Assembly (NCBI GenBank): GCA_027061725.1
Contig: JAMOVG010000212.1
Coordinates: 1 to 40,178, forward strand
Length of the DNA stretch: 40,178 nt
Direction: 5' to 3'
From: Desulfobacteraceae bacterium
GTDB taxonomy: Bacteria; Desulfobacterota; Desulfobacteria; Desulfobacterales; JALSRD01
In this document: in pieces, positions 8,862-27,473 of the stretch
How the letters are laid out: each line of letters starts with the position of its first letter
How positions within the stretch are numbered: position 1 is the first letter of the stretch
The notes under the pieces: generated by a model
Databases searched by the model: none
Seen by the model: only the letters and a program-made list of their open reading frames with translations
What the model was told of the DNA's origin: nothing
Position numbers and translations under genes: made by a program

Positions 8862-9404
8862 GTGAAACGCAGACAGGGCCAAAAAGCCGGCGGCGGCGCG
8901 ACCGTCACCGAAAAACAGATCGCGGCCTTCGTGGAAACGGCCCGTTCACTGGGAAACGCCCTGTGCGAGGCCGAGGGAGTGGAACTGGTGCACGTGGAGT
9001 ACCAGCGCGAACCGGTGGGAAGGGTTCTGCGCCTGTATATCGACAAGCCGGGGGGGGTCACCCTGGACGACTGCGTGGCGGTCAGCCGCCAGATGGGCGA
9101 CCTGCTGGACATCCACCTGGATGTCGAGGTATCCTACCGGCTGGAAGTGTCATCGCCCGGCGAACAGCGGCCCCTGGGCCGGCGGGAGGATTTCACGCGC
9201 TTCGCCGGCAGACGGGTTGAGATCAGGGTCCGGCAGCCCGTCGGCAACCGCCGGAAGTTCAAAGGGACTCTGCTCGGCATGGACGGAGAAACCGTCAACA
9301 TGCTGGTGGACGGCAGCCCGGTCGCCATCCCCTTCGGGGAAATCAAGCGGGCGCGCCTGGGAAAACAAACGGAGAATAATAGGGATGTTCATCACAGACA
9401 TTAA
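8862..9404 (+). CDS. rimP: ribosome maturation factor RimP (GTG start proposed)
   Basis: EAEGVELVHVEYQREPVGRVLRLYIDKPGGVTLDDCVAVSRQMGDLLD...; start moved downstream of the terminator. Confidence 0.9.
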   Translation: MKRRQGQKAGGGATVTEKQIAAFVETARSLGNALCEAEGVELVHVEYQREPVGRVLRLYIDKPGGVTLDDCVAVSRQMGDLLDIHLDVEVSYRLEVSSPGEQRPLGRREDFTRFAGRRVEIRVRQPVGNRRKFKGTLLGMDGETVNMLVDGSPVAIPFGEIKRARLGKQTENNRDVHHRH

Positions 9405-23224: not shown

Positions 23225-23422
23225 ATGTCTTTCTGCACCGTACCCGGACTTGAGGGGAAGCTCTTCACCCCGTCGCCGGCGCCCGCAGCAAGCCACAAAC
23301 ACGCCTGCCCGGACTGCTTCGCCTGCCAGGCCTGCAGCCAGGCCCGCTGCCGACTGTGCCGGTCGGAGGGTACGGTATCCGGCGACCGTTCCGCCGTTCC
23401 GCCGGAGGAGAACACCTGCTGA
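23225..23422 (+). CDS. small Cys-rich protein (65 aa; CxxCxxCxxCx4CxxC)
   Basis: RBS AGGAGGGG 6 nt before ATG; HACPDCFACQACSQARCRLCR; TGATG overlap with the mlaE start. Confidence 0.65.
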   Translation: MSFCTVPGLEGKLFTPSPAPAASHKHACPDCFACQACSQARCRLCRSEGTVSGDRSAVPPEENTC

Positions 23423-24225
23423 TGCCGACCGCTGAAGCCATCCGCAACGGCCTGGAGGCCCTGGGCCGGCACGCCATAACGCCCGTCGAGGAGATGGGGC
23501 GCATCGCCATTTTCTTCTTCAAGGCCCTGAGCCAGATCTTCACCCTGCCCCTGCAGGTGCGCAAGATCATCCAGCAGGTGTATTTCATCGGCGCCAAATC
23601 GGTGTTCGTCATCTGCCTGACCGGCGCCTTCACCGGTATGGTGCTGGGCATCCAGGGCTACTACACCTTGGTCAAGTTCGGGTCCGAGGGCCTGCTGGGA
23701 GCGGCCGTGGCGCTCTCTCTAATCCGCGAAATGGGGCCCGTGCTGGCCGCCATCATGGTCATCGCACGGGCCGGCTCGGCCATGTCGGCCGAAATCGGCA
23801 TCATGCGCATTTCGGAACAGATCGATGCCCTGACCACCATGGACATCGACCCCATCCGCTTCCTGGTGAGCCCGCGCATTGCCGCCGGCCTGATCAGTTT
23901 CCCGCTTCTGACGGCGCTTTTCGACGTCATCGGCATCATTGGCGGCTACCTGACGGGATCGCTGCTGCTGGGCATCAACCCGGGCATCTATTTTGCCCGC
24001 GTGCAGAGCAGCGTGGTCATGCAGGACGTCAGCGGGGGATTCATCAAGTCCATCGTTTTCGCCATCATCGTAACCCTGATCTGCTGTTATGAGGGCTTTT
24101 ACACCGACCGCCGCCGGGAGGGTTTTGGCGCCAAGGGGGTCAGCCTGTCGACCACCGCGGCCGTGGTCACCTCCTGTGTCCTCGTGCTGATCTCCGACTA
24201 CGTGCTGACGTCGATCCTGTTGTAA
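23422..24225 (+). CDS. mlaE: MlaE-family lipid ABC transporter permease
   Basis: GAFTGMVLGIQGYYTLVKFGSEGLLGAAVALSLIREMGPVLAAIMVIARAGSAMSAEIG. Confidence 0.95.
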   Translation: MPTAEAIRNGLEALGRHAITPVEEMGRIAIFFFKALSQIFTLPLQVRKIIQQVYFIGAKSVFVICLTGAFTGMVLGIQGYYTLVKFGSEGLLGAAVALSLIREMGPVLAAIMVIARAGSAMSAEIGIMRISEQIDALTTMDIDPIRFLVSPRIAAGLISFPLLTALFDVIGIIGGYLTGSLLLGINPGIYFARVQSSVVMQDVSGGFIKSIVFAIIVTLICCYEGFYTDRRREGFGAKGVSLSTTAAVVTSCVLVLISDYVLTSILL

Positions 24226-24234
24226 AGAGATGCC

Positions 24235-25464
24235 ATGGAAACGCCGCTCATCCAATTCCAAAACGTATTCAAGAGCTTCGGTGAAAACCGGGTGCTGCGT
24301 GGCGTAGACCTGGACATCTACCGGGGACAGGTAACCACCATCATCGGCAAGAGCGGCGTGGGCAAGAGCGTCATGCTCAAGCTGATCATCGGGCTGATGC
24401 AGCCCGACAGCGGCACCATCCTGTTCGACGGCCGTCCCCTGACGGATTTCAGCAAGAAGGAGAAAAAGGCCCTCAAGCAGCGTCTGAGCTACATGTTCCA
24501 GGGTACGGCGCTGTTCGACTCCATGACTGTATTCGAAAACATCGCCCTGCCGCTGGCCGAACGCCGGGGCCACTCCACTGCCGAAATCCGCAAGCGGGTG
24601 CGCGAGAAAATGCGCCAACTGGACCTGCACCAGATCGAGGACAAGTACCCCTCACAGCTGTCCGGTGGCATGAAGAAGCGCGTGGCCCTGGCGCGGGCCC
24701 TGGTGACGGATCCCGAGATCGTACTGTTCGACGAACCCACCACGGGACTGGACCCCATCCGCAAGAACGCCGTGCACAGTATGATCTCCAACTACCAGAA
24801 GCGTTACGGGTTCACCGGCGTCATCGTCAGCCACGAGATACCGGACGTCTTTTACATTTCCCAGCAGGTGGCCATGCTCGACGAGGGCCGTATCCTTGTG
24901 CAGGGAAAGCCCGACGACATCCTGGAATCCACCGACCCGGCCGTCCAGGAATTCATCAACGGCCTCGAGACCCGTCACGACGACCTGACCGGCCTGATGC
25001 CCCAGCCCCAGGGCACCAAAAAATTCTGGGAGCACATGGCCCACCTGCGGAATCACCACATCCACTTTTCGCTGGTGCTGCTGACGGTGGAAAATATCGA
25101 CGAAATCAACGACACCATCGGCCACGTGGCCGGCCAGATCGTGCTGCGCAATCTGGCCACGCAAGTGCAGCAGTTCCTGTCCATAACGGACACCTGCTCG
25201 CGCCTGGGGCTCAACAAGATTCTGGTGTCCCTGTCCGGCAGCAACCGAAAACGGGCTGAGGATTTCTGCGAGCGGCTCTCCGGAAAACTCAAGCCGGACA
25301 AAATGCTCGAGGGCCGCCCCGGGGCCAACTTCTGCGTGTCCATCAGCGCCGGCTTCGTGGAGGTGCACGAAAACAGCCAGCTCGAGGAACTGCTGGCCGG
25401 AGCGGAGCAGAACCAGAAGACCTTTTTCGAGTTTCGGGTCTGTACCATAGCGGAGGAAACATGA
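24235..25464 (+). CDS. mlaF: MlaF-family lipid ABC transporter ATPase with a C-terminal degenerate GGDEF-like domain
   Basis: Walker A GKSGVGKS, LSGGMKKRVALARAL, Walker B IVLFDEPTTGLDP; aa 249-409 read as a GGDEF fold (DDLTGL...SLVLLTVENIDEINDTIGHVAGQIVLRNLA...SRLGLNKILVSLSG). Confidence 0.92.
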   Translation: METPLIQFQNVFKSFGENRVLRGVDLDIYRGQVTTIIGKSGVGKSVMLKLIIGLMQPDSGTILFDGRPLTDFSKKEKKALKQRLSYMFQGTALFDSMTVFENIALPLAERRGHSTAEIRKRVREKMRQLDLHQIEDKYPSQLSGGMKKRVALARALVTDPEIVLFDEPTTGLDPIRKNAVHSMISNYQKRYGFTGVIVSHEIPDVFYISQQVAMLDEGRILVQGKPDDILESTDPAVQEFINGLETRHDDLTGLMPQPQGTKKFWEHMAHLRNHHIHFSLVLLTVENIDEINDTIGHVAGQIVLRNLATQVQQFLSITDTCSRLGLNKILVSLSGSNRKRAEDFCERLSGKLKPDKMLEGRPGANFCVSISAGFVEVHENSQLEELLAGAEQNQKTFFEFRVCTIAEET

Positions 25465-25910
25465 AAAAATCGTCTGCGGAAATGGTTGTCGGCATTTTCG
25501 TATTGATCGGCATTGTGTGTGTCGGTTACCTGACCATCCAGTTGGGAAAAATGGAGCTGATCGGGGGAAACTATTATCACCTGCAGGCCAAATTCGAGTC
25601 GGTTTCCGGACTCAAGACCGGCGCCCAGGTGGAAATCGCGGGCGTGCAGGTGGGGCAGGTAGACGCCATCAACCTCGACGTGGACCAGATGGTGGCCCTG
25701 GTGGACCTGAAAATCCGCAAGGGCATCGAACTCACCGACGACACCATCGCGTCGGTGAAAACGGCCGGCCTGATCGGCGATAAATACATCAAAATTTCCC
25801 CCGGGGGCTCCGATGAAGTCCTCAAGCCGGGCGGTATGATCATGGAAACCGAATCGGCCATCGACCTTGAGGAACTGATCAGCAAGTATGTCTTCGGCGG
25901 CATCAAGTAG
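25461..25910 (+). CDS. mlaD: MlaD-family (MCE domain) lipid transport protein
   Basis: VGIFVLIGIVCVGYLTIQLGK...FESVSGLKTGAQVEIAGVQVGQVDAI. Confidence 0.95.
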   Translation: MKKSSAEMVVGIFVLIGIVCVGYLTIQLGKMELIGGNYYHLQAKFESVSGLKTGAQVEIAGVQVGQVDAINLDVDQMVALVDLKIRKGIELTDDTIASVKTAGLIGDKYIKISPGGSDEVLKPGGMIMETESAIDLEELISKYVFGGIK

Positions 25911-25945: not shown

Positions 25946-26554
25946 ATGAAAACCATTGTCACCTTCTGCCTGGGCCTGCTGCTGGTGGTCACCGCACCGG
26001 CTGTCGCCGGGGCGCCGGGACCCATGGAGACTCTGAGGGTCCCCGTAAACAAGGTCCTGGCCCTGCTCAAGGACCCGCAGTACAACACGCCCGAGAAGCG
26101 CAAGATCCAGCGTGAAAAGCTCTTCGAGTACACCGGCGACATCTTCGACAGCGTTGAGATTTCCCGGCGTGCCCTAGGGCGCAACTGGCGGCGCTTCACC
26201 CCCGAGCAGCGCAAGAAATTCACCGAACTGTTCGCCAAGATCCTCAAGAAAACCTATTCGCGGAAAATCCAGAGCACCCAGGAGGACTACAAGGTGGTCT
26301 GGCTGGGCGAGAAAAAGACCTCGCCCACCCGGGCCGTCGTGATGACCAAAGTGGTGCGCCCCAGCGGCGATTTTCCGGTGGACTACAGGATGCACCTCAA
26401 GAACAACCGGTGGAAGGTCTACGACGTAATGGTCGAGGGTATCAGCCTCGTCAAGAACTACCGCTCCCAGTTCAACAGGTACCTGGTCAACAAGAAACCC
26501 GCCCAACTGATAGCCCTGCTGCAGAAAAAAGTCGATCGCATGGAAAATGAATAA
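25946..26554 (+). CDS. mlaC: MlaC-family periplasmic phospholipid-binding protein
   Basis: Signal peptide; ALGRNWRRFTPEQRKKFTELFAKIL...VDYRMHLKNNRWKVYDVMVEGISLVKNYRSQF. Confidence 0.93.
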   Translation: MKTIVTFCLGLLLVVTAPAVAGAPGPMETLRVPVNKVLALLKDPQYNTPEKRKIQREKLFEYTGDIFDSVEISRRALGRNWRRFTPEQRKKFTELFAKILKKTYSRKIQSTQEDYKVVWLGEKKTSPTRAVVMTKVVRPSGDFPVDYRMHLKNNRWKVYDVMVEGISLVKNYRSQFNRYLVNKKPAQLIALLQKKVDRMENE

Positions 26555-27473
26555 AAAAACCGATCGTCATGCTCTCATTGGGTCCAGGAGTCTCGCGGCC
26601 CTGATGGTGGTTCTGCTGGCGCTGACGGGCTGCGCCCACAAGCGAACCGCTGGTGGGCCGGCCGATATGCGGACTCCGGAAAGCGGCGCACCGTCGCCTG
26701 CGGCACAGGTGGTCCGGGTGTCCTCTTCTTCGGCCACGCCGGCCGAAACCGCCGGCGGCAAAGCCGACTCCGGCGCCGCCCAGGCCACTGATGATTCCGA
26801 ATTTTCCGACGATGCCTACACGGACGACGAGGATTTCCTGGACGAAGACGAGGACACCGAGCCGGCCATGGATGTCCCCGACCCGCTGGCGCCCTTCAAC
26901 CGCGCCATGTACGTCTTCAACGACCGCGCCTATTTCTGGGTGCTCAAGCCCGTGGCCTTGGCTTACCGCAAGGTGGCCCCGAAGCAGTTTCGCCTGTGCG
27001 TCAAGAATTTTTTCTACAACATCGCGGCCCCCATCCGTTTCGCCAACTGCCTGCTGCAAGGCAAGTTTACCTCGGCGGCTCGGGAACTGACCCGCTTCTT
27101 CATCAACTCCACGGTGGGCTGCGGCGGCCTCAACGACTTGACGCCCCTGTACCCGGACCTGCAGACCCACCCCGAGGACCTGGGCCAGACCTTCGGGCGC
27201 TACGGCATCGGCGAGGGGTTTTACATCGTCTGGCCCCTGCTGGGCCCGTCCTCACTGCGGGACACCATCGGCATGGTGGGCGACATTTTCATCGACCCGG
27301 TGACCTACTTCAACACGACCACCATCGGCATCGGAACGCGCGCCCTGGACATGATCAACCTGACCTCTTTCCGCATCGGCGACTACGAGGCCATCAAGGA
27401 TGCCGCCATCGACCCGTACGAAGCCCTGCGCAACGGCTACCTGCAGTACCGCCGCCAACAGGTCAGCGAGTGA
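26547..27473 (+). CDS. mlaA: MlaA-family outer-membrane lipoprotein
   Basis: Lipobox LTGC; DPLAPFNRAMYVFNDRAYFWVLKPVALAYRKV...RFFINSTVGCGGLNDL. Confidence 0.95.
   Translation: MNKKTDRHALIGSRSLAALMVVLLALTGCAHKRTAGGPADMRTPESGAPSPAAQVVRVSSSSATPAETAGGKADSGAAQATDDSEFSDDAYTDDEDFLDEDEDTEPAMDVPDPLAPFNRAMYVFNDRAYFWVLKPVALAYRKVAPKQFRLCVKNFFYNIAAPIRFANCLLQGKFTSAARELTRFFINSTVGCGGLNDLTPLYPDLQTHPEDLGQTFGRYGIGEGFYIVWPLLGPSSLRDTIGMVGDIFIDPVTYFNTTTIGIGTRALDMINLTSFRIGDYEAIKDAAIDPYEALRNGYLQYRRQQVSE

Follow-up and report, generated by a model that had tools for sequence, protein, structure and literature searches.

A degenerate GGDEF domain fused to the Mla transporter ATPase MlaF in Desulfobacteraceae and further families of Thermodesulfobacteriota

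The window, a stretch of 40,178 nucleotides from a Desulfobacteraceae genome, contains an mla operon on the forward strand, in which Pfam identifies the gene order mlaE-mlaF-mlaD-mlaC-mlaA. The permease gene mlaE (23356..24225; Pfam MlaE, E 1.1e-78) probably starts about 22 codons downstream of its listed GTG (window 23356-23425 region), many of its homologues starting near residue 23-33 of the listed ORF. The start of mlaD (25461..25910; Pfam MlaD, E 2e-21) overlaps the stop of mlaF (ATGA), and is followed by mlaC (25946..26554; Pfam MlaC, E 6.1e-45) and the lipoprotein gene mlaA (26547..27473; Pfam MlaA, E 1.4e-67). The flanking genes are unrelated to Mla; upstream lies one for an aldo/keto reductase, and downstream are those for a CxxCxxCC protein and for a DAO oxidoreductase. 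The window's mla operon contains no mlaB; STAS proteins are encoded elsewhere in the genome.

The gene mlaF (24235..25464, forward strand) encodes a protein of 409 aa, compared with 269 aa for E. coli MlaF. Residues 1-244 (24235..24966, forward strand) form the nucleotide-binding domain, with Walker A GKSGVGKS, signature LSGGM and Walker B LFDEP. Pfam ABC_tran matches residues 21-170 (E 1.5e-38), the top NCBIfam model is NF008809 (MlaF), and the best fold matches of a full-length structural model are E. coli MlaF chains. A previous sequence-only reading had called this ORF an MlaF ATPase extended by a further domain from residue 249 (nt 24979); its coordinates and motif readings are right, and the three comparisons agree with its assignment to MlaF. 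The score against NF008809, 193 bits, lies below the equivalog cut-off of 441, and the protein does not have the short handshake end that works with MlaB in E. coli. Its ABC ATPase motifs, including the LSGGM variant, and the accompanying mlaE, mlaD and mlaC genes are those of MlaF, and the fusion protein is an Mla ATPase of a layout other than the E. coli type. The junction (residues 236-248; 24940..24978, forward strand) ends in FINGLETRHD, and its FINGLE aligns with FLDGIA of E. coli MlaF, the point from which the E. coli protein continues into its handshake extension. A frame error or chimeric assembly is ruled out by the presence of the same fusion in independent genomes, including the single- or two-contig assemblies G011, G050 and G150.

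Residues 247-409 (24973..25464 with the stop codon included, forward strand) constitute a degenerate GGDEF domain. PF00990 matches residues 247-393 (E 1.1e-17; 64.7 bits, cut-off 23.8), with the match ending at profile position 150 of 161, and also matches all 44 homologous tails tested. Searched against the PDB, a profile made from 44 tails finds GGDEF/cyclase families by sequence, the best match being 3ign (E 3.8e-21). AlphaFold2 models of the tail alone (pLDDT 83.7, pTM 0.81) and of the full-length protein (pLDDT 85.1) both place the helices and strands of the tail in the order of the cyclase topology. The best 50 PDB matches listed by Foldseek for the tail model are all GGDEF domains or diguanylate cyclases, with a TM-score to the query of about 0.67-0.78. 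The C-terminal GGDEF fold proposed from the sequence is thus borne out, and neither the lack of a cyclase fold nor assignment of the tail to the ordinary MlaF C-terminal region emerged from these searches. Profile, structure and conservation together rule out an ordinary MlaF C-terminus and a chance resemblance alike; the likeness to GGDEF domains is far beyond chance. Among the six GGDEF matches in the window's genome the mlaF tail is the weakest, at 66 bits compared with 123-170 for the others.

Residues were counted in 54 tails of the window's own branch of homologues (branch 1) and in 31 tails of a second, divergent branch (branch 2). At the metal-binding LDIDxF the window protein reads LTVEN (residues 283-287; 25081..25095, forward strand), both aspartates being replaced; within branch 1 the first Asp is found in 0/54 tails and the second in 6/54. 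Q301 (25135..25137, forward strand) replaces the guanine-contacting Asp of GHxxGD, a position at which Gln is found in 47/54 branch-1 and 19/31 branch-2 tails. The GGDEF signature reads GLNKI (residues 325-329; 25207..25221, forward strand). In branch 1, L or M takes the place of the second Gly of this signature in 47/54 tails, the signature Asp position holds N in 35, D in 16, S in 2 and T in 1, and the catalytic Glu position is occupied by Lys or Arg in 50, giving xNKI; branch 2 mostly has xNEF, xNEI or xNQF. Like Q301, other replacements are conserved in branch 1 (K328 in 44/54, N287 in 48/54 and C321 in 52/54), while F278 and D319 are invariant there. The C-terminal helix of active cyclases holds phosphate-binding Lys/Arg residues; here it lies beyond the end of the Pfam match in the window protein and is shortened in the alignment. 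The GG(D/E)EF signature and metal aspartates of an active diguanylate cyclase are missing from the window protein and lost family-wide, and the residue counts rule out an active cyclase. The degeneracy already noticed in the window's active site extends throughout its relatives, and the window tail is predicted to be catalytically dead and is not expected to synthesise c-di-GMP.

At the position of the I-site RxxD, the window protein has SITD (residues 316-319; 25180..25191, forward strand), in which the Arg is lost. The sequence-only reading had inferred loss of the inhibitory site, which holds for the window protein but not for the family, since branch 1 keeps the Arg in 38/54 tails and the Asp in 54/54, typically as RITD (for example in L021) and in L026 as RVTD. 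The lineage without the Arg includes G001, which also has SITD, and L018, which has NITD. A Lys or Arg is found in 44/54 branch-1 tails at the second I-site position, that of PleD R390. Branch 2 has the Arg in 2/31 tails and the Asp in 0/31, and most of its tails carry GGFSxR in place of this region. Active-type cyclase domains from the surveyed genomes have the I-site Arg in 33 of 35 cases, a figure that may be high as these are mostly top-scoring matches. Four of the five other GGDEF proteins in the window's genome have a GGEEF signature, and their I-sites read RNSD, RNMD, RPSQ and KDID. By conservation the I-site Arg ranks 54th of 159 tail columns, so its retention is a hint of ligand binding and no proof. 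Binding of c-di-GMP by the window protein through the primary I-site is unlikely. Because most branch-1 relatives keep RxxD, a ligand-binding origin stays possible for them, and it is possible that their tails sense c-di-GMP.

The same extension is widespread among homologues, as a survey called for by the sequence-only reading confirms. A genome of the same genus carries the fusion at 74% identity, and at least 97 matches at 48% identity or more span both MlaF and tail among 390 genomes of the order. The named relatives belong to Desulfobacterales/Desulfobacteraceae, in the phylum Thermodesulfobacteriota. Many other genomes of the order have, among the matches listed, an MlaF match that stops at about residue 245-255. 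A class-level search gave nearly the same genomes as the order-level search, while at phylum level (296 genomes) matches of 42-59% identity reach far into the tail in further families. No full-length match to the fusion was found on plasmids. Branch 2 (L066-L074, L087, L090-L107 and L113-L115) comprises a divergent MlaF of the same layout from further families of the phylum, with tails that match PF00990 more weakly, some under the cut-off. Both branches are present in the genomes G003, G152, G195 and G511. Given that the junction and layout are common to the two branches, their tails likely have one origin.

In an unrooted tree of 100 ATPase domains, tail-less MlaF proteins are interspersed among tailed ones, and well-supported branches force at least eight changes of the tail-less state. 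Tailed and tail-less sister pairs include L075/L076, L056/L080 and L042/L078, and what look to be vestiges of the tail stand at the C-termini of the short proteins L080 (TGSESETS) and L111 (ELTDPYARSRF). We read this pattern as an old gain of the tail followed by many losses, a direction of change that we infer, with transfer of mlaF genes as a possible contributor. On this reading the tail, which is widespread in the phylum, is old and has been lost time and again, and this argues for a role in modulation instead of an indispensable one. It is under purifying selection, with a dN/dS of 0.17 in the window/G001 pair (0.15 for the ATPase domain) and of 0.10-0.22 for the majority of the remaining pairs; values of 0.3-0.7 come from three very close pairs that differ by few changes. 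No link was found between loss of the tail and loss of c-di-GMP enzymes, as genomes whose MlaF lacks the tail still show 2-26 strong GGDEF matches, and other strong GGDEF proteins are encoded in 63/63 genomes tested.

The mla operon is conserved in relatives both with and without the tail. A rough STAS profile search found no STAS ORF beside the surveyed mla loci except at L059. The profile was built from seven seeds, one of which (L122) was wrongly excised; when E. coli MlaB was left out of these seeds, the resulting profile still picked it up at 20.7 bits. The tail-less operons (L076-L085 and L108-L112), which are scattered in the tree, are also without a detectable mlaB. Three loci depart from the usual arrangement. 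L059 (4953-9265) has the atypical order mlaF-mlaE-mlaD-mlaA, with the STAS-domain ORF adjoining on the minus strand (8930-9265). At L049 (2419-6671) the operon is split: mlaA and mlaC precede mlaE-mlaF-mlaD and are encoded on the other strand. At L067 (2127-6221) the tailed mlaF is separate from mlaE-mlaD-mlaC and lies about 0.8 kb downstream of mlaC.

The final ~25 residues of E. coli MlaF embrace the adjacent MlaF subunit and contact MlaB; a protein truncated here no longer functions, and most of its function returns on artificial dimerisation (PMC7367683). The tail of the window protein begins at the site of this extension, a domain-swapped handshake, and the window's operon lacks mlaB. We propose, at roughly even confidence, that the dead GGDEF domain is a C-terminal regulatory domain of MlaF whose copies associate with one another or pack on a neighbour, tuning the ATPase dimer. 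The two tails of an MlaF dimer would pair up, or each would pack on the neighbouring MlaF, and through these contacts the MlaE-bound ATPase dimer may be tuned or made more stable, much as with the C-terminal domains of MetN. Both the self-association and its effect on transport are our extrapolation from the shared start of tail and extension and from the missing STAS ORF, a combination that favours a domain of this kind; the AlphaFold2 predictions were of monomers only. Foldseek aligns the full-length model with MetN over ~360 columns at an rmsd of about 8-10 Å, which does not in itself superpose the tail on the MetN C-terminal domain. As tail-less operons likewise have no detectable mlaB, the tail would act as a modulator rather than an essential clamp, and the frequency of tail-less MlaF without mlaB indicates that in this phylum MlaF can do without either part. 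The same observation weakens a one-for-one replacement of MlaB by the tail and makes it doubtful that the tail strictly substitutes for the handshake.

The tail might instead be a c-di-GMP receptor, at least ancestrally in branch 1, in which binding at the I-site (RxxD and the Lys/Arg of the next helix) alters MlaF activity and would couple lipid transport at the outer membrane to the c-di-GMP level, and which has been lost or modified in the window protein. Degenerate GGDEF receptors that retain an I-site are already known, and branch 1 keeps each element of the site in most tails even though its active-site positions are almost all replaced; every genome tested encodes strong GGDEF proteins elsewhere. 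We consider this reading unlikely, however, as S316 stands in place of the Arg in the window protein and G001, branch 2 has almost entirely lost the motif, the Arg is of middling conservation rank, and cyclases persist in genomes whose MlaF is tail-less. Improbable to a similar degree is sensing of another nucleotide (GTP or ppGpp) or of a protein partner through a reshaped former active-site face, with xNKI and Q301 marking the putative surface; the conserved replacements in branch 1 speak for such a surface, but the metal aspartates are gone and the phosphate-binding helix is shortened. It is very unlikely that the tail is no more than a passive leftover, contributing structure or stability at best: the tail-less state recurs in close relatives and the tail evolves faster than the ATPase domain, but its dN/dS is clearly below 1 in most pairs, F278 and D319 do not vary in branch 1, and many families of the phylum keep it. 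The proposed self-associating regulatory domain could also be taken further, into a phylum-wide dead-GGDEF regulator that replaces the MlaB/handshake module and doubles as a c-di-GMP receptor setting phospholipid transport in the RITD branch, a combination that we regard as quite improbable.

Aligned over 266 residues, the window MlaF and the ATPase of E. coli MlaFEDB are 33% identical and belong to one family, and both systems have the partners MlaE, MlaD and MlaC. While E. coli has a handshake of ~25 aa and the STAS regulator MlaB, the window MlaF has a folded degenerate GGDEF domain of ~160 aa, and its operon lacks mlaB and includes mlaA. Profile and structure comparison place the tail in the fold and family of the diguanylate cyclases (PleD, SiaD and DosC; PF00990), but its metal, catalytic, guanine-contact and C-terminal phosphate-binding residues are replaced or missing. 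The dead active site, together with RxxD in most branch-1 relatives, is shared with the degenerate GGDEF receptors of c-di-GMP; unlike these, the tail is fused to an ABC ATPase and has lost RxxD in the window protein and branch 2. MetN-type ABC ATPases also have a folded domain after the nucleotide-binding domain, by analogy a candidate for self-association below the dimer, but in the window protein this domain is GGDEF and not the MetN C-terminal domain. A GGDEF-family domain is likewise found on another transport protein, an ammonium transporter (PDB 8qj3 and 8qpf), though one unrelated to ABC transporters.

No description of an MlaF-GGDEF fusion was found in the literature, judged from titles, abstracts and occurrence counts, subscription papers lying mostly outside this scope; protein databases may already carry such proteins under automatically assigned domain labels. 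Taken across the surveyed genomes, the fusion is real, conserved and commoner than a reading of one stretch of DNA could reveal, and it appears to be a new form of a known transporter. Even for E. coli, the post-translational control of Mla transport is an unsettled question (PMC7367683). A folded domain derived from signalling, held across a phylum at the position that locks the dimer, is a natural experiment on this question, and since sister species within the same genera differ in whether they have the tail, its role is directly testable. If the tail does sense a nucleotide, it would tie second-messenger state to the lipid asymmetry of the outer membrane.
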